Source of the DNA: a virus
Reading direction: 5' to 3' (one strand)
DNA: 58,269 bases
IMG/VR virus record: IMGVR_UViG_3300017728_000008
Coordinates: 1-58,269 of that record
In this document: in pieces, positions 2,905 to 19,609 of the stretch
How the letters are laid out: each line of letters opens with the position of its first letter
Numbering within the stretch: position 1 is the stretch's first letter
Program-made: the position numbers and the translations under genes
The notes under the pieces: model-generated
Database searches by the model: none
Told to the model about the DNA's origin: nothing
What the model saw: the letters and a program-made list of their open reading frames with translations, nothing else

Positions 2905-3306
2905 CTATTTTTTATTTTTAATTTTTTCCCAAGACCTTCCTCCAAAATAAGAAGCAATAACGGTTGCAAGAATTAACTGCAAAAGCGATATCCATTCTTC
3001 TTTAACTTCAAAATTAATTGACCCTGCTTCTATAAAAATCAAAAGCATTGTACAAACAATTAAAAAGATAAGTACCATGGGTCTTACGTTCTTCGAAAGC
3101 CAAGAATCTGAAGACATATCTTCCCTCCACCTTTCAGTAACATTTTTTTGCATATCAGCCTCAGCTTTTATAAAAGTTTCTGTTAACTCTTTTTCAAATC
3201 GAGCACGTTCTTCTTTGCTAAAAGTGTGAGTAGCTACTATATTGCTAATTTTTTCGGCTATTCCTCCACCTATCTTTCCAAATATTTTATTTAGTATTTC
3301 TTTCAT
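2905..3306 (-). CDS. Putative holin (3TM-like holin family)
   Basis: 133 residues. The N-terminal half is an amphipathic, charged helix (EKISNIVATHTFSKEERARF). Then comes SWLSKNVRPMVLIFLIVC with a first membrane segment (about residues 77-95) and a second (about 105-122, LLQLILATVIASYFGGRSW), ending in a Lys-rich tail. The WLxKNVRPMV pattern followed by two hydrophobic helices is typical of the GTA-type 3TM holins. The gene overlaps the amidase gene by 4 nt, forming a lysis cassette. It would form pores in the inner membrane to release the amidase. Confidence 0.8.
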   Translation of the reverse strand: MKEILNKIFGKIGGGIAEKISNIVATHTFSKEERARFEKELTETFIKAEADMQKNVTERWREDMSSDSWLSKNVRPMVLIFLIVCTMLLIFIEAGSINFEVKEEWISLLQLILATVIASYFGGRSWEKIKNKK

Positions 3307-8016: not shown

Positions 8017-8139
8017 TTATTTTTCGTTAGTTTTATTTTTTTCGATTTTGGTTTTTTTTAATTCACCGCTAATCTCATCTTCTTTAAAAATTTTTTTTAA
8101 ATGCTTTTTCATTCCGGGTGTGTATTCTCTACTTCTCAT
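8017..8139 (-). CDS. Lysine-rich peptide after groEL, 40 aa
   Basis: Reads MRSREYTPGMKKHLKKIFKE, then a Lys/Glu-rich helix. ATG overlaps the GroEL stop (ATGA). The coupling and intact frame suggest it is translated; function unknown. Confidence 0.55.
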   Translation of the reverse strand: MRSREYTPGMKKHLKKIFKEDEISGELKKTKIEKNKTNEK

Positions 8140-9749
8140 TTGTTAGAGGTTTCATAACTACGTGCCATTGTCACGATAGCATTAGTTGATAGTATCGTTA
8201 CGGCAACTGAAACTGCATTTTGCAGAGCCTGTCTTGTTACTTTAACAGGGTCTATAACTCCAAGAGTCATTAAGTATCCGTATTTTTCTTTCTTAACATC
8301 ATAACCGTAATTGTTTCCTTTAACATCATGGTATATAGATTTAAAATCTAAACCTGCGTTATCTAAGATTTGAATTAACGGAGCTGACAAAGATTCAGCT
8401 AAAATTGCTAAAGCAATTTTTTTTGATAAATTTTCTTCTTTATTATATCTAATAGCACAAGATTTGCTATGATTAAATAGTGTTAATCCACCACCGGGCA
8501 ATATACCTTCTTCAAGAGCGGAGCGAACGGCACACACCGCATCATCCACTCTGTCATATAATTCTTTTTGTTCAAGGTCAGTATTCCCTCCTACATATAC
8601 CACTCCAATACCTCCTGTTAAAGAAGCAATTCTTTTGTTAAGAAATTCTTTATCATCTTTTCTTTTAGCTTCTTCAAGTGCTTCTTGTAGTTGGGTTATT
8701 CTATCAACAACCTCTTGGTTAGATTCCTTGTCGTCTTTAACGATGACAGTTGAGTCACGTCCAACTATCACCTTGGAACAATGACCCAAGTCGTTGAACT
8801 TAATCAAACTCAAATCATCGCCTGTCTTTTCGCTAAAATATGTAGCACCTACACTTATTGCAATATCCTGCATAAGCTCGTGTTGCCTGTATCCAAAATC
8901 CGGAGGAACTATGTTACAAATTTTTAATCCATTCTTTACTACGTTTGCAGCTAAGGTGTTTATTACATTGGTAGAGCACGGAGCAATAATTAAAAGTTTC
9001 TTACCCTCTTGTATGATTGGTTTTAATATATTTTCAATTTGAAGTATGTTATTAATCTCTCCATCACATACCAAAACGTAAGTGTCTTCAAGGACACATT
9101 CATCTCTTTTTTGGTCGTTTATAAACAAGCCTGAAGAATATCCTCTTTTTATTTTAATACCTTTTGTTGTTTCGTAATAGGTAGCGGAGGTTTTACTATT
9201 TTCAACAGTAACTACACCATCCTTGCCTACACTCTCATATACATCTGCAATAATGTCCCCAATAGTTTTATCATTGTTGGCTGAGATGACTGCAACATCA
9301 CGCAATCTTTTAGCGTCTAATTTTTTTCCTTTTACTTTTAAATCTTTTGATATCAATTTCGTTATGTCCACTAAATGCCTGAGCACTTCGGTTCTATTAA
9401 CTTTGTCGGTTATTAATTCGGTACCTGCATTAACTAAAGCCTCAGCAAGTACAATAGCCGTGGTAGTCCCATCTCCTGCTGAAGATGCGGTTCTGTCGGC
9501 TGCCTCTTTCATCATTCTAACCGCAAGGTTTTCTACCGGGTCTAATAATGAAATTGATTTCGCTACAGTCACACCATCCTTAGTTACCGTAATTCCATGT
9601 AAGTGTTCGGGTGATTCTATTAACACAGTATTACCTCGTGGTCCAAGTGTGGACTTTACTGCGTTTGCTATTTGTTTTATTCCTTGAATTAATTTGTTTC
9701 TTCCCTCATCGGAGAAATGAAGTTCTTTTGGATTGAATCCTTGTTGCAT
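8136..9749 (-). CDS. groEL: Phage-encoded chaperonin GroEL
   Basis: 537 residues, close to the bacterial 540-550. Hallmarks in order: VKSTLGPRGNTVLIE, GITVTKDGVTVAKSI, ASSAGDGTTTAIVLAEAL (ATP site), the apical domain, LTGGIGVVYVGG, DAVCAVRSALEEGILPGGGL, ending in YETSNK without the usual Gly-Gly-Met tail. It forms the double-ring folding machine with GroES; phage-encoded full-length GroEL is uncommon. It has its own promoter (TTTG-N17-TACCTTTG). A near-copy of the dispersed palindrome with one mismatch lies at 9082-9097, encoding VLEDT. Confidence 0.96.
   Translation of the reverse strand: MQQGFNPKELHFSDEGRNKLIQGIKQIANAVKSTLGPRGNTVLIESPEHLHGITVTKDGVTVAKSISLLDPVENLAVRMMKEAADRTASSAGDGTTTAIVLAEALVNAGTELITDKVNRTEVLRHLVDITKLISKDLKVKGKKLDAKRLRDVAVISANNDKTIGDIIADVYESVGKDGVVTVENSKTSATYYETTKGIKIKRGYSSGLFINDQKRDECVLEDTYVLVCDGEINNILQIENILKPIIQEGKKLLIIAPCSTNVINTLAANVVKNGLKICNIVPPDFGYRQHELMQDIAISVGATYFSEKTGDDLSLIKFNDLGHCSKVIVGRDSTVIVKDDKESNQEVVDRITQLQEALEEAKRKDDKEFLNKRIASLTGGIGVVYVGGNTDLEQKELYDRVDDAVCAVRSALEEGILPGGGLTLFNHSKSCAIRYNKEENLSKKIALAILAESLSAPLIQILDNAGLDFKSIYHDVKGNNYGYDVKKEKYGYLMTLGVIDPVKVTRQALQNAVSVAVTILSTNAIVTMARSYETSNK
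9082..9097. repeat. Imperfect copy of the dispersed palindrome inside groEL
   Basis: GTGTCTTCAAGGACAC: one substitution from the perfect 16-base palindrome. May be chance or a decayed copy, because VLEDT is a plausible GroEL sequence. Confidence 0.35.
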
Positions 9750-11454: not shown

Positions 11455-12459
11455 ATGAGAGATTTATCAAACAACGGAGTTCAGTTCACAACCTTAAACG
11501 ACACCACAAGACGTGGTCAAGTGAGCGGTTATCATTCTAAACCGGACCCAATTTTCAGAACCAAAGCAACCGCTCAAGACGTTAGCGGTTTAAAATCAGT
11601 TGACCGCAAGAACATTAGTTTTGATGGCACAGAGTACGAGAGCAATTTCAGAATTGGTTTCGAAGTAGAGAAAGCACGTCTTCACAGAGGAGCAGTTGAG
11701 GAGTATCCATTATTTTGTGGGTTCGAAACAGATTCTTCTTGTGGTTATGAAGCGGTTACTCACGTTTTACCTTTGGTAGCGAAGTCAATGTGGAGAACGA
11801 AAGTTTTCAACATGTTTCACCAAGCTAAGAAGATAATTGATGACGAGTACTCACCATCAGATGCTTCTTGTGGTGGTCATATGACTATCTCTGCTGAGGG
11901 TATGACCGGAGCTGAGTTGATGAGTAGAATTAGAAAATTCACACCAATCATCTTATCTATATTTCGTAAGAGGTTAACCAACAGATATTGCAATGGCAAT
12001 CCGCAGTTGTTACCAATGGGAGAGGGAGTTATGTCTTCCGGTTCATCGAAGTATGTTGTCTGTAAAGATACCGGTTTCGGTGTCGAGTTCAGAATACCAT
12101 CGAGAATTACATCTGTTAAACAGATGATAAGACGTTACGAGTTAATGTACATCTTGATGGACTTTGCAGTAAACCAACCGGATGCAACAACGAGAAAGTT
12201 TTACAATGCAGTTAAACCAATCCTGTTGAGTATGTACGAGAAAGACGAAGTGAAAGTTGAAAAGCTAATCACGTTAGCAAGAGATTTCGAGAAGTTCGTC
12301 AAGACCGGTAAAGTTGACCATACTACTGCCGGATGGCTCGAGGGGTGGTGGTCAAGTAGAAACTACTCTTTAGGTAAGTACAGAAATTACTACAAGAGAA
12401 ATTTCAGACCGGATAGCGATGTTGTGCTACAATGGAGAGGTTCAAATCGAATGTTCTAA
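11455..12459 (+). CDS. Amidoligase-family enzyme (COOH-NH2 ligase)
   Basis: 334 residues from ATG 11455. Motifs of the Amidoligase_2 family, which has a glutamine-synthetase/GCS-like fold: FRIGFEVEK (65-73, metal-binding Glu), ETDSSCGYEAVTH, CGGHMTIS (near 140-146) and GFGVEFRIPSRI (near 208-219). Such enzymes use ATP to join a carboxylate to an amine; in phages they are found with GAT-II and GGCT domains, as with the fusion at 13635. The substrate is unknown; a peptide tag, cell-wall or small-molecule product is possible. Followed by a hairpin and hammerhead ribozyme. GC is visibly higher than in the small early genes. Confidence 0.82.
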   Translation: MRDLSNNGVQFTTLNDTTRRGQVSGYHSKPDPIFRTKATAQDVSGLKSVDRKNISFDGTEYESNFRIGFEVEKARLHRGAVEEYPLFCGFETDSSCGYEAVTHVLPLVAKSMWRTKVFNMFHQAKKIIDDEYSPSDASCGGHMTISAEGMTGAELMSRIRKFTPIILSIFRKRLTNRYCNGNPQLLPMGEGVMSSGSSKYVVCKDTGFGVEFRIPSRITSVKQMIRRYELMYILMDFAVNQPDATTRKFYNAVKPILLSMYEKDEVKVEKLITLARDFEKFVKTGKVDHTTAGWLEGWWSSRNYSLGKYRNYYKRNFRPDSDVVLQWRGSNRMF

Positions 12460-12467
12460 TCCACATA

Positions 12468-12493
12468 GGGTGGTGTCTTCAAAGACACCATCC
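12468..12493 (+). repeat. Hairpin abutting ribozyme 1, containing palindrome copy 3
   Basis: GGGTGGTGTCTT-CA-AAGACACCATCC folds into a stem of about 11 bp with one G-U pair. Palindrome copy at 12473-12488. The next base (12494) is the first of ribozyme stem III, so the helices could stack. It begins 9 nt after the amidoligase stop and would cap the 3' end of the cleaved upstream mRNA. Confidence 0.85.
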
Positions 12494-12544
12494 TCTGTCG
12501 AGAGATGAGTGTCTCTCCTGATGAGTCCAAAAGGACGAAACAGA
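12494..12544 (+). ncRNA. Type III hammerhead ribozyme 1
   Basis: Stem III UCUGU (12494-12498) pairs with ACAGA (12540-12544). Cleavage is expected after C12499 (GUC). Stem I GAGAGA/UCUCUC (12500-12505, 12512-12517) with loop UGAGUG. Core CUGAUGA 12518-12524. Stem II GUCC-AAAA-GGAC (12525-12536). GAAA 12537-12540. All catalytic-core positions are intact. Lies between the amidoligase gene and the gene at 12565, so it should split the early mRNA. The 5'-OH product would begin with the stem I hairpin. Confidence 0.93.
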
Positions 12545-12564
12545 AACCTTTAAATAAAAATAAA

Positions 12565-12873
12565 ATGAGAAATTTAATTTTAAACAACACAGACATCAAA
12601 GAATACTTTGCTAACAATAGCTTTGATGAGATGCTCGTAACAACAGACTTAAAAGCATTTAACAATTTAGAAAACCACGATGACTTAGATTGGGAAGAAG
12701 TAGTTGAGTTTGGTGTGAAGAAAGTTGTAACGACTCCTTTTGCACACGAATATTCAACAATAGACTACGACAAAATTACTGCAGTATGCATTCGTTTCGA
12801 CAATGGTGTACACGATGACACAGAGATAGTAATAAATCACAACACAGAAGTTGGACCATTTAATAAAAACTAA
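12565..12873 (+). CDS. Acidic early protein, 102 aa
   Basis: Start at MRNLILNNTDIKEYFANN; the in-frame ATG at 12505 lies inside ribozyme stem I and is rejected. Acidic throughout (HDDLDWEEVVEFGVKK), one domain, no motif recognised. It is the first gene on the RNA made by cleavage at ribozyme 1; its leader is A-rich, as usual in Bacteroidota. Could be a small inhibitor-type protein; no evidence beyond size, charge and early position. Confidence 0.75.
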   Translation: MRNLILNNTDIKEYFANNSFDEMLVTTDLKAFNNLENHDDLDWEEVVEFGVKKVVTTPFAHEYSTIDYDKITAVCIRFDNGVHDDTEIVINHNTEVGPFNKN

Positions 12874-12877
12874 AACT

Positions 12878-13042
12878 ATGAAAACACCAAAACTTACATT
12901 AGAAAACTTAAACAAGTACGAAGTTCGTTCACTTGTTTATGCTCTCACGAAAGTTGCTAAAGAAACGACCGATGAGTTAACGAGAGACAATGCTTTAAAT
13001 TTATTAACCAAAATACAAAACGTAAAAAGATATGAAAACTAA
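12878..13042 (+). CDS. Small helical protein, 54 aa
   Basis: Start at ATG 12878 (MKTPKLTLENLNKYEVRSLV), five bases after the previous stop; the longer frame overlaps the previous gene. Predicted helical, with an acidic/basic pattern (KVAKETTDELTRDNALNLL). Overlaps the next gene by 11 nt. Function unknown. Confidence 0.7.
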   Translation: MKTPKLTLENLNKYEVRSLVYALTKVAKETTDELTRDNALNLLTKIQNVKRYEN

Positions 13043-13229
13043 AGTAGAATATTTTATCAGTATGAAAAGTTGCTACGGCAATTACACAAGATTCAAAAAG
13101 GAGTTCAATGACGAACGTCACTTTGAAAATTGGTACGACTTTATGTCCAACAAGGGACATAAGATAATCGGAGTAGAAAAAATCAAATCAAACTTAGACA
13201 GGGTAAAAGATAAATTTGGTTATGTCTAA
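13032..13229 (+). CDS. Hypothetical early protein, 65 aa
   Basis: Reads MKTKVEYFISMKSCYGNYTR, rich in aromatic residues (HFENWYDFMSNKGHKIIGVE). No domain recognised. The ATG overlaps the previous stop region by 11 nt. Likely small, soluble and early. Confidence 0.72.
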   Translation: MKTKVEYFISMKSCYGNYTRFKKEFNDERHFENWYDFMSNKGHKIIGVEKIKSNLDRVKDKFGYV

Positions 13230-13246
13230 ATTTTGTCTTACCTTTG
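13215..13246 (+). promoter_or_regulatory. Promoter for the small membrane-protein gene
   Basis: TTTG at 13215-13218, 20-nt spacer, TACCTTTG at 13239-13246, 43 nt before the ATG at 13290. Allows the downstream part of the operon, including ribozymes 2 and 3, to be transcribed separately. Confidence 0.65.
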
Positions 13247-13289
13247 TTTAAATCAATTATTATTTTAACTTAATTATAAAACTATTATT

Positions 13290-13505
13290 ATGAAACTTTC
13301 AAACATTATTCAAAACACAATCCTTTCAATCGTAACATTATTTGTAATCGCATCAAGCGTAAGACTGCTAATTCATATCGCAGTAACTGAGCAATTTGGT
13401 TTGCCTCAGTTCCTCGCATTCGGATTAGTATTCGGCTTCATCGGTTTCTTATACTCTCTTATCATTGGAATCGTAGTGAACGAGTGGAAGTCATCAATGG
13501 CTTAG
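13290..13505 (+). CDS. Small inner-membrane protein, 71 aa
   Basis: Two hydrophobic segments (about residues 8-30, ILSIVTLFVIASSVRLLIHI, and 40-64, FLAFGLVFGFIGFLYSLIIG) separated by a short polar turn with EQFG; no cleavable signal peptide. Sits between the amidoligase and GAT-II/GGCT genes and is followed by hairpin plus ribozyme 2. It could anchor the modification system at the membrane or exclude superinfecting phage; both are guesses from topology and context. Confidence 0.75.
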   Translation: MKLSNIIQNTILSIVTLFVIASSVRLLIHIAVTEQFGLPQFLAFGLVFGFIGFLYSLIIGIVVNEWKSSMA

Positions 13506-13515
13506 ACTCTACTAA

Positions 13516-13538
13516 GGGTGGTGTATCTCACACCATCC
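13516..13538 (+). repeat. Variant hairpin abutting ribozyme 2
   Basis: GGGTGGTGT-ATCTC-ACACCATCC: same basal stem as the other two ribozyme hairpins (9 bp, one G-U), but the apical CTTCAAAG is replaced by ATCTC. Shows that the base of the hairpin belongs to the ribozyme cassette while the apex can vary. Confidence 0.8.
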
Positions 13539-13587
13539 TCGTATCGAGATGTGTATCTCGACTGATGATACCAAAAGGTTGAAACGG
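13539..13587 (+). ncRNA. Type III hammerhead ribozyme 2
   Basis: Stem III UCGU/ACGG (13539-13542, 13584-13587, one G-U), cleavage after A13543 (GUA). Stem I UCGAGAU/AUCUCGA (13544-13550, 13555-13561) with loop GUGU. Core CUGAUGA 13562-13568. Stem II UACC-AAAA-GGUU with a U-U at its base. GAAA 13581-13584. Stem I shares no sequence with ribozyme 1 yet pairs fully, so pairing is conserved while sequence is not. Stem III is weak, so activity may be slower. Confidence 0.85.
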
Positions 13588-13599
13588 AAACAGAGTTCG

Positions 13600-13615
13600 G
13601 TGTCTTCAAAGACAC
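13600..13615. repeat. Dispersed palindrome, copy 4 (after ribozyme 2)
   Basis: GTGTCTTCAAAGACAC flanked by CG...CG, extending the stem to 18-20 bases. Lies in the leader of the GAT-II/GGCT gene, 19 nt before its ATG, so a folded hairpin could restrict ribosome access. Confidence 0.85.
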
Positions 13616-13634
13616 CGCTCACAATTCAAACATT

Positions 13635-14741
13635 ATGTGTATAATTATTATCAAACAAAAAGGCAAAGATGTGCCAAGAGAAGTTCTCAAAACATCTTCC
13701 AAAATCAATCCTCACGGATTAGGTATTGTATGGCTCGACACGTTCGAGGTTACATATCACAAGTCAAAAGAGTTCGGTGTGTTGGATAACGACAGACCCT
13801 ACATCGCTCACTTTAGGTATGCTACAATAGGTAAAGTTTGCAAGGCAAACACACACCCATTTGTATGTGGCAGAAATACAGACGAGTTACTAATGATGAA
13901 CGGAACGATTAAAGGTTATGGTAGTCCAACAATGACAGACACCGAAGACCTTGCAATCAAGTTGGGTTCAACACCAAGGCATGGTTGGAAACAATCGCTA
14001 TCTAAATTCGATGCAAGGTTTGTTTCAATCAACAAAAGAACACGTTCGTTTCAAATCTACAACAAGAACCTGTTCACTATTCGGGATGGAGTTTGGTACT
14101 CCAAGAACAATGTACTGCAAGACAATCTTATGGCGGTCTATGGTACATTAAGAAAAGGCGGTAGCAATTACTATCGGCATCTAAAAAACGAAAAGCATTT
14201 AGGCACCGGAAAGACCACAGATAAATACCCTATGGTTTCTAATGGTATACCTTACTTGCTTGAGAAAAGAGGCGAAGGAGACAATGTGGTGGTTGATGTT
14301 TTTAAAGTCAGCGATATGGCGATGAATAAAATAGATATTCTTGAGGGACATCCGGAGTGGTACCGCAGAAAGAAAGTTGACATAAGTTTAAAAGGAAAAG
14401 TATACCCCTGTTGGATATACTTTAACGAGGGTGCAGAGACAATGTGGAACAAACAGAACCACATAGCAGACTACCAAGCGATACGAACGATTAGTTCGTT
14501 TGGCATAAAACGAACGTATGATACGTTTGAAGACCTTGAGACCACGTGGATTGATGATGTACCTACGTGTACTCAATTAGAGTTTGCAGACTTAGAGGTA
14601 GAGGAGTTCAATAAAGAGAACGAGTCCCCGGTCTGTATAGATTGTTGTCACGACTTAGAGTACGATGGTTTTTCTCATTACCATTGTAATGGTTGTGATG
14701 GTTGGTTCTCCTATAACGAAGTGATGCACTTTCAAGGATAG
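13635..14741 (+). CDS. Class-II glutamine amidotransferase / GGCT (AIG2) / zinc-ribbon fusion
   Basis: 368 residues. N-terminal Ntn-type amidotransferase: MCIIIIKQKG places the nucleophile Cys at position 2, followed by GLGIVW, AHFRYATIGKVCKANTHPF and LMMNGTIKGYG. From about 165 comes a gamma-glutamylcyclotransferase-like domain: LMAVYGTLRKGGSNYYRHL and IDILEGHPEWYRRKKVDI. The C-terminus is a four-Cys ribbon, CIDCCHDLEYDG...YHCNGCDGWF. GAT-II would release or transfer ammonia from glutamine, and GGCT would cleave gamma-glutamyl-type bonds. Paired with the amidoligase at 11455 and enclosed by ribozymes 2 and 3. The combination and the zinc ribbon suggest a dedicated conjugation/deconjugation system; the target is unknown. 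Confidence 0.85.
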   Translation: MCIIIIKQKGKDVPREVLKTSSKINPHGLGIVWLDTFEVTYHKSKEFGVLDNDRPYIAHFRYATIGKVCKANTHPFVCGRNTDELLMMNGTIKGYGSPTMTDTEDLAIKLGSTPRHGWKQSLSKFDARFVSINKRTRSFQIYNKNLFTIRDGVWYSKNNVLQDNLMAVYGTLRKGGSNYYRHLKNEKHLGTGKTTDKYPMVSNGIPYLLEKRGEGDNVVVDVFKVSDMAMNKIDILEGHPEWYRRKKVDISLKGKVYPCWIYFNEGAETMWNKQNHIADYQAIRTISSFGIKRTYDTFEDLETTWIDDVPTCTQLEFADLEVEEFNKENESPVCIDCCHDLEYDGFSHYHCNGCDGWFSYNEVMHFQG

Positions 14742-14748
14742 CCACAAA

Positions 14749-14774
14749 GGGTGGTGTCTTCAAAGACACCATCC
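14749..14774 (+). repeat. Hairpin abutting ribozyme 3, containing palindrome copy 5
   Basis: Same 26-base hairpin as at 12468 (GGGTGGTGTCTT-CA-AAGACACCATCC); palindrome copy at 14754-14769. Begins 7 nt after the stop of the GAT-II/GGCT gene and runs straight into ribozyme stem III. Confidence 0.87.
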
Positions 14775-14825
14775 TCTGTTCACGGATGTGTGTCCGTGCT
14801 GATGAAGTCAAAAGACAGAAACAGG
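14775..14825 (+). ncRNA. Type III hammerhead ribozyme 3
   Basis: Stem III UCUGU/ACAGG (14775-14779, 14821-14825, one U-G), cleavage after U14780 (GUU). Stem I CACGGA/UCCGUG (14781-14786, 14793-14798), loop UGUGUG. Core CUGAUGA 14799-14805. Stem II AGUC-AAAA-GACA with an A-A at its base. GAAA 14818-14821. The loop I (UGUGUG) and loop II (AAAA) sequences resemble those of the other two copies, which fits loop-loop contacts needed for fast cleavage. Confidence 0.9.
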
Positions 14826-14847: not shown

Positions 14848-15051
14848 ATGAAAGCAAATGAATTATTAAAATTTTTAAAAAGTGTAGAACAACAAGTACA
14901 AGGTTACGGAAAAACCTTAGAAGACGTTGAAGTAAATTTCAGAAGAACAGATGACTCTGACATTGAACCAACCGACTCTGTAGGTGTAGACTTATTTGAT
15001 GCAGAGTCAAATAAAATTGTAGAAAGTATAGTATTAATGGGTAAATATTAA
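14848..15051 (+). CDS. Acidic hypothetical protein, 67 aa
   Basis: Reads MKANELLKFLKSVEQQVQGY; net acidic with DDSDIEPTDSVGVDLFD. First gene on the RNA product downstream of ribozyme 3. Leader is AT-rich (TTAAATTAAAATTAAAATT). Family not recognised. Confidence 0.72.
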   Translation: MKANELLKFLKSVEQQVQGYGKTLEDVEVNFRRTDDSDIEPTDSVGVDLFDAESNKIVESIVLMGKY

Positions 15052-19580: not shown

Positions 19581-19609
19581 AGGGGGGACTATAATCCTCC
19601 CTTTTTTTT
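19581..19609 (+). terminator. Intrinsic terminator of the early operon
   Basis: Stem AGGGGGGA / TCCTCCCT (8 bp, one G-U) with loop CTATAA, followed by eight T. Lies 18 nt after the SSB stop. Confidence 0.88.

Follow-up and report, generated by a model that had tools for sequence, protein, structure and literature searches.

Hammerhead ribozymes (HHRs) are known to cluster around phage and prophage genes, and a role in the processing of long phage transcripts was proposed for such clusters by Perreault et al. (2011; PMC3088659). One example is a set of three HHRs that surrounds ardA in a prophage of Agrobacterium tumefaciens, and for some of the clustered phage HHRs cleavage has been shown both in vitro and in E. 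coli (PMC3088659). What hammerheads do in bacteria and phages has been described as an open question (PMC6155905), and as late as 2023 the cause of their association with genes was given as unknown (PMC10085705). Here we describe three type III HHRs on the + strand of one virus record, IMGVR_UViG_3300017728_000008 (58,269 bases, analysed as a whole and referred to below as the window). They lie in three gene spacers of one operon, and each is joined on its 5' side to a stable hairpin. We propose with moderate confidence, from sequence comparison, that such a cassette would form a 3' end, and so stabilise the upstream message, while letting transcription continue.

As in the arrays described in 2011, several coding-strand HHRs flank single genes or gene blocks. 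What sets the present ribozymes apart from those arrays is a hairpin flush with stem III, which is nearly universal among the type III members considered here. The main text of PMC3088659 describes no such partner and mentions neither 'terminator' nor 'stem-loop', and we found no description of a hairpin partner of phage or bacterial hammerheads in the open-access literature searched. The first-pass annotation of the window regarded a serial hairpin-ribozyme cassette between coding genes as new. The 2011 paper (PMC3088659) already contains HHRs that flank (pro)phage genes, their serial arrangement and the idea of processing, and the novelty is confined to the coupling with an obligatory hairpin. 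Like glmS and the ribozymes of 5' untranslated regions (5'-UTRs), the cassettes are predicted to cleave in cis within bacterial mRNA; unlike these, they have no ligand, lie between genes and form no 5'-UTR switch.

Three hairpin-ribozyme cassettes in one operon

The first cassette consists of a 12 bp hairpin with a UCAA tetraloop (12467..12494, + strand), 7 nt past the stop codon at 12459, and a type III hammerhead (12494..12544, +) with C at position 17 and a G-C pair at 10.1/11.1, for which cleavage is expected after C12499. In the second, a 10 bp hairpin (13515..13539, +) that has the basal stem of the others and a different apex is situated 9 nt past the stop at 13505; its type III hammerhead (13539..13587, +) carries A17 and U.U at 10.1/11.1, with cleavage expected after A13543. 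The third hairpin (14748..14775, +), again of 12 bp and identical in sequence to the first, begins 6 nt past the stop at 14741 and is followed by a type III hammerhead (14775..14825, +) with U17 and A.A at 10.1/11.1, expected to cleave after T14780. Every hairpin is flush with stem III of its ribozyme and all three have the basal stem AGGGTGGTGT...ACACCATCCT in common. RNA folding recovers the hairpin and ribozyme stems at 3/3 sites (z -5.4, -3.2 and -4.2 respectively).

The core pattern CTGATGA-N5-AAA-N4-GAAAC occurs three times in the window as compared with 0.33 expected, a number reached in 0/100 shuffles, and the conserved core elements C3UGANGA9, G12A13A14, A15.1-U16.1 and H17 are present in the correct order in all three copies. 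Core pattern and stems bear out the ribozymes, coordinates and expected cleavage sites of the first-pass annotation, as the three sites do its zero gap and common basal stem; the hairpins also start close behind stop codons as it had claimed, at the distances given above rather than at 7-11 nt. The geometry is very short and fixed, with a stem-loop I of 18 nt, a stem-loop II of 12 nt and a stem III of only 4-5 bp.

In topology, core and cleavage-site rule the window ribozymes agree with Rfam family RF00008 (Hammerhead_3), from which they differ in this short fixed geometry and, for copies 2 and 3, in the U.U or A.A at 10.1/11.1. The RF00008 search lists ribozyme 1 alone, its 47.6 bits falling just short of the 48.5-bit threshold; ribozymes 2 and 3 are not listed. 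With R1, a covariance model trained on 71 type III members of the family described below, the window copies included, ribozymes 1, 2 and 3 score 73.6, 65.8 and 68.8 bits. A U.U mismatch at 10.1/11.1 is tolerated in hammerheads, and the hammerhead of phage PaP3 (Bruynoghevirus) is listed among the active core variants (PMC3088659). The PaP3 record gives one ribozyme match, which like ribozyme 2 combines A17 with U.U and has near-identical loops (GTCGTATCGGGATGTGTGTCCCGGCTGATGATTCCTAAAGGATGAAACGAC), which makes it the nearest relative of ribozyme 2 with activity shown by experiment; the search of LUZ24 gave no match. Unlike the window ribozymes, that of PaP3 is located directly before the start codon of the transcript's first gene rather than between genes, and the 6-bp hairpin upstream of it is not flush with stem III.

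The cleavage-site base and the 10.1/11.1 pair (window positions 13543/13569/13580 and 14780; columns 5, 31 and 42 of alignment A1) appear to be linked. C17 practically always accompanies G-C and never U.U, A17 mostly accompanies U.U, and U17 accompanies A.A (Fisher p about 1e-11, kinship not corrected).

The hairpin partner in relatives and in other phages and bacteria

With the window protein that resembles class II glutamine amidotransferases (GAT), encoded between ribozymes 2 and 3, we retrieved 54 related viral loci. A scan of this GAT family by regular expression and pairing, accompanied by reversed-sequence controls, found 107 HHRs, 88 of type III and 19 of type I, spread over 57 loci and without exception on the coding strand; the controls gave a single match. 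Almost all of the relatives have HHRs. The covariance model search returned 96 matches at E<1e-10, all on the + strand, with the next at 0.03. Of 50 virus records, 42 have matches, which cluster in one region of each genome. The type III stems covary, being 97.1% paired with 294 double-change cells compared with 89 in shuffles (0/500 shuffles); stems I and II are closed and stem III is open, as in the type III topology. The two annotated relatives of the GAT gene, L393 and L394, gave no match in the ribozyme scan.

A hairpin flush with stem III is present in 85% of 72 distinct type III HHRs of the GAT family; random sites have one in 8% of cases, and upstream sequence after shuffling in 5%. 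Under a stricter score the share is 78% of 81, compared with 0.7% after shuffling and 0% when a position 60 nt downstream is taken instead, and several of the apparent hairpin-less exceptions have bulged hairpins or hairpins placed further away. Hairpin and stem III are mostly joined with no linker at all (0 nt), and the median distance from stop codon to hairpin in the family is 7 nt. We drew two further, independent samples with nothing but the ribozyme core as criterion. The hairpin partner is found in 79% (37/47) of those from viral contigs outside the GAT family and in 72% of those from bacterial contigs, many of them Patescibacteria, with controls of 5-10%; the hairpins outside the GAT family have other sequences, often with UUCG or GNRA-type caps. 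The first-pass annotation had made the co-occurrence of hairpin and ribozyme in related phages a test of its reusable module; the relatives decisively show this co-occurrence, and the module, placed at gene junctions, is conserved well beyond the window phage. Anatomy, position, covariation and generality of the cassette can all be read directly from these sequences.

Among the Patescibacteria candidate contigs (L275-L354, for instance L308, L324, L326, L333 and L350) there are many type III HHRs with the hairpin on the 5' side. A GUUCUUU-like motif is situated just 3' of 27/63 of the hammerheads on these contigs, compared with a background of 4%.

The hairpins of the window have a further peculiarity, as the 16 nt of the apex (GTGTCTTCAAAGACAC) are a dispersed element that also occurs inside open reading frames (ORFs) and is not specific to ribozymes. 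The corresponding 16-bp palindrome, GTGTCTTCRAAGACAC, has about 12 copies in the window, between and inside genes, at 9082 (1 mismatch), 10562, 11425, 12473, 13600, 14754, 15640, 19150, 23537, 31867, 50540 and 57715. The repeated palindrome is genome-specific, being GTCTGTTNNAACAGAC in the related genome G038 and GGGGGTTCAAACCCCC in G043, and in the relatives, too, the palindrome of each genome is found within ORFs, which are of comparable size (one of ~415 aa, one of ~537 aa and the giant ORF). The dispersed palindrome looks like a co-evolving DNA site that is distinct from the hairpin partner.

This dispersed element allows hairpins at ribozymes to be compared with copies elsewhere. In the 39 palindrome copies linked to type III HHRs the outer arms are paired in 91% of cells and contain 34 G·U as opposed to 4 A·C (p=6e-7); in the 195 other copies pairing falls to 42%, and G·U (81) does not outnumber A·C (86). 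Because an A·C is a G·U seen from the other strand, the G·U excess shows that the transcribed strand is under selection, and that this is so at ribozymes only. On this comparison of sequences, selection on the hairpin acts at the RNA level. Among 19 cassettes that share one geometry, changes on both sides are seen in every one of the nine hairpin pairs and in most of the ribozyme pairs; as the hairpins of that set were picked for pairing, the G·U test weighs more. Many HHR-linked hairpins do not contain the palindrome of their genome (for example GGGGCGGGAAACCGCCCC and GAGGAGGGCAAACCTCCTC), and the same is seen in unrelated phages (TAGGGGCTTCGGCCCCTA), so that the partner of the ribozyme is a hairpin and not a specific palindrome.

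Some junctions have the hairpin only. Downstream of GAT, 19 of the 54 loci have a ribozyme and 17 a hairpin alone. The window itself contains an extra hairpin, CGGTGTCTTCAAAGACACCG (13598..13617, +), between ribozyme 2 and the GAT start, and a relative, L036, has a ribozyme-free hairpin before GAT at the same place. These two cases suggest that ribozymes have been gained at, or lost from, pre-existing hairpin junctions. Two cassettes appear to be decaying: at L094:7147-7195 CCGATGA replaces CTGATGA, and in L085, near 3092-3140, a hairpin is followed by a ribozyme-like remnant. A pattern search for the hairpin alone was rejected, as nearly all of its 71 matches are due to chance and one, L036, is a true relative.

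Which cleavage product is selected

We envisage that just past the stop codon comes a stable hairpin and, practically abutting it, a type III hammerhead, which would fold as RNA polymerase passes and cut 4-7 nt past the hairpin base. The upstream message would then end in the hairpin, a short tail and the 2',3'-cyclic phosphate that is expected from hammerhead chemistry, a terminator-like end that would resist 3'-5' exonucleases. Transcription would go on, giving a downstream message with a 5'-OH at its start. In this way the early polycistronic RNA would be divided into units of separate stability, namely the amidoligase, the small genes, GAT-GGCT and the next genes. We infer cleavage and the end groups from hammerhead chemistry, and at one further remove the cassettes may affect stability and expression.

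The type I HHRs of the GAT family help to decide which product matters. In these the hairpin is stem III itself, with at least 8 bp in 13/18. In both topologies the upstream product would end in a hairpin followed by a short tail; a downstream 5' hairpin would be left by type III only, and not by type I. Because type I leaves no 5' hairpin, the upstream 3' end is the feature common to both topologies, and the stem I hairpin at the 5' end is probably not their common denominator. In type III the tail from the hairpin to the expected cleavage site is 4-7 nt in about 90% of cases. RNase II reportedly stalls when a duplex is 5-7 nt away, and RNase R is reported to require no fewer than 5 nt of 3' overhang (PMC10240344); given these distances a tail of 4-7 nt would be at the limit of exonuclease use.

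A G+C-rich hairpin of 10-12 bp with a short tail, close past a stop codon, resembles an intrinsic (Rho-independent) terminator. Unlike such terminators, the cassettes have no T-run and transcription should continue, the end being made by cleavage, with the cyclic phosphate expected. A TTTT run follows 0/56 hairpins of the GAT family. The terminator search of the + strand listed none at the three cassette sites and detected a real terminator-like site nearby, at 19581-19602. As they lack the TTTT run, the cassette hairpins are not intrinsic terminators.

Several points weigh against 3'-end formation as the selected function. A tail of 5-6 nt satisfies the 5-nt overhang reported for RNase R, and flush abutment would equally suit a role in folding, by coaxial stacking on a stem III of 4-5 bp. 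The 10.1/11.1 pairs of ribozymes 2 (U.U) and 3 (A.A) are non-canonical, and we know of no experimentally tested relative of the A.A form. There are, in addition, relatives with a hairpin-only junction or no ribozyme at the homologous place, which implies that cutting is dispensable in some phages.

The alternative that survives best, although we think it unlikely, is that the hairpin is a folding aid: coaxial stacking on stem III, which is short and open, and insulation of that stem from upstream coding sequence would speed the folding of the ribozyme, and protection of the 3' end would be incidental. The near-absence of a linker and the shortness of stem III are in its favour, and ribozymes 2 and 3 folded alone reach z of only -1.1 and -1.6, compared with -3.2 and -4.2 with the hairpin, although the hairpin itself gives most of this difference. 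However, a shorter stem III does not go with a stronger hairpin (Spearman -0.11, +0.36 and -0.04 in three samples), and hairpins of 10-14 bp are more than stacking requires. The stem III of type I, which is closed anyway, is lengthened to 8-12 bp in most family members, and some junctions have the hairpin alone. We also considered a switch, suggested by the folds, in which bases before the hairpin pair with the stem III strand; the mean helix of 3.30, against 3.06 when permuted, is a small effect confounded by kinship and was not used.

It is considerably less probable that the cassettes act as modular boundaries, as recombination or mobile spacer elements that spread by homology, with cleavage not the selected property. 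The outer hairpin arms are indeed identical in all three window cassettes, and the ribozyme is present or absent at homologous junctions. Set against this, strong compensatory change in all ribozyme stems together with a core intact in nearly all copies requires selection on folding, and homogenisation is not significant, the hairpins of one genome resembling each other no more, statistically, than they resemble those of other genomes (p=0.19).

Still more improbable is a hairpin that is first of all a DNA operator, its 16-bp palindrome bound by a phage protein in the manner of a stoperator and the ribozyme being incidental. The spread of GTGTCTTCRAAGACAC in and between the genes of the window and the separate palindromes of other family genomes would be expected of such a site, but the many HHR-linked hairpins that do without the genome's palindrome, in unrelated phages also, and the extended, G.U-biased arms confined to HHR-linked copies would not. 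Ligation of the fragments between ribozymes, via their 5'-OH and 2',3'-cyclic phosphate ends, into circular RNAs or spliced products is highly improbable too: three serial ribozymes would release fragments of 1044 nt and 1237 nt with suitable ends, but no hairpin is required, 30 phage records contain no RtcB or RNA_ligase family member (this concerns phage-encoded enzymes; a host ligase is possible), and Perreault et al. sought spliced or circular products and found none (PMC3088659). A search of phage records for T4 Rnl1 likewise gave no match but, having no positive control, is uninformative.

Gene context and significance

Upstream of ribozyme 1 lies a putative amidoligase gene (11455..12459, +; 334 aa from the ATG at 11455). 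Profile searches of Pfam and PHROGs gave no match for this ORF. The amidoligase label of the first-pass annotation is likely to be correct, given that phage C75C1 has an annotated amidoligase at the same place, upstream of a GAT-homologous gene, and that the region of the G-F-E-V-E motif is kept in 4 homologues. Between ribozymes 1 and 2 the ORF list gives four small ORFs on the + strand (12565-12873, 12878-13042, 13032-13229 and 13290-13505; block 12565..13505). Ribozymes 2 and 3 flank the GAT gene (13635..14741, +; 368 aa; PHROG 2520), earlier labelled a fusion of a class II amidotransferase with a gamma-glutamyl cyclotransferase. The cyclotransferase half is well supported (GGACT domain, PF06094, E=2.2e-20), and for the amidotransferase half there are weak matches only (GATase_6/GATase_4, E 0.001-0.002). 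The first gene after ribozyme 3 is an ORF of 67 aa with no assigned function (14848..15051, +), the ATG of which is 22 nt past the ribozyme. Elsewhere the window encodes GroEL, a BT4734-like primase-type protein and a weak match to a P22-type portal, a content that fits a podovirus of Bacteroidota. The phage GroEL gene (8136-9749, - strand; PF00118, E=2.5e-59) is also annotated beside the homologous operon in MW202828.

The hairpin partner is conserved across unrelated phages and bacteria and lies on the same side of the cut in both topologies. This suggests that selection is on the 3' end of the upstream product, and the cassette would be a compact part for splitting operons without terminators. 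We suggest, tentatively, that hairpin plus hammerhead may be a general device that, in phages and on the chromosomes of Patescibacteria, provides mRNA with stable 3' ends while transcription runs on; it would constitute a second, RNA-catalysed route to such ends and might be the main function of prokaryotic hammerheads. The architecture itself is real and widespread, and it gives prokaryotic hammerheads a concrete, testable function.

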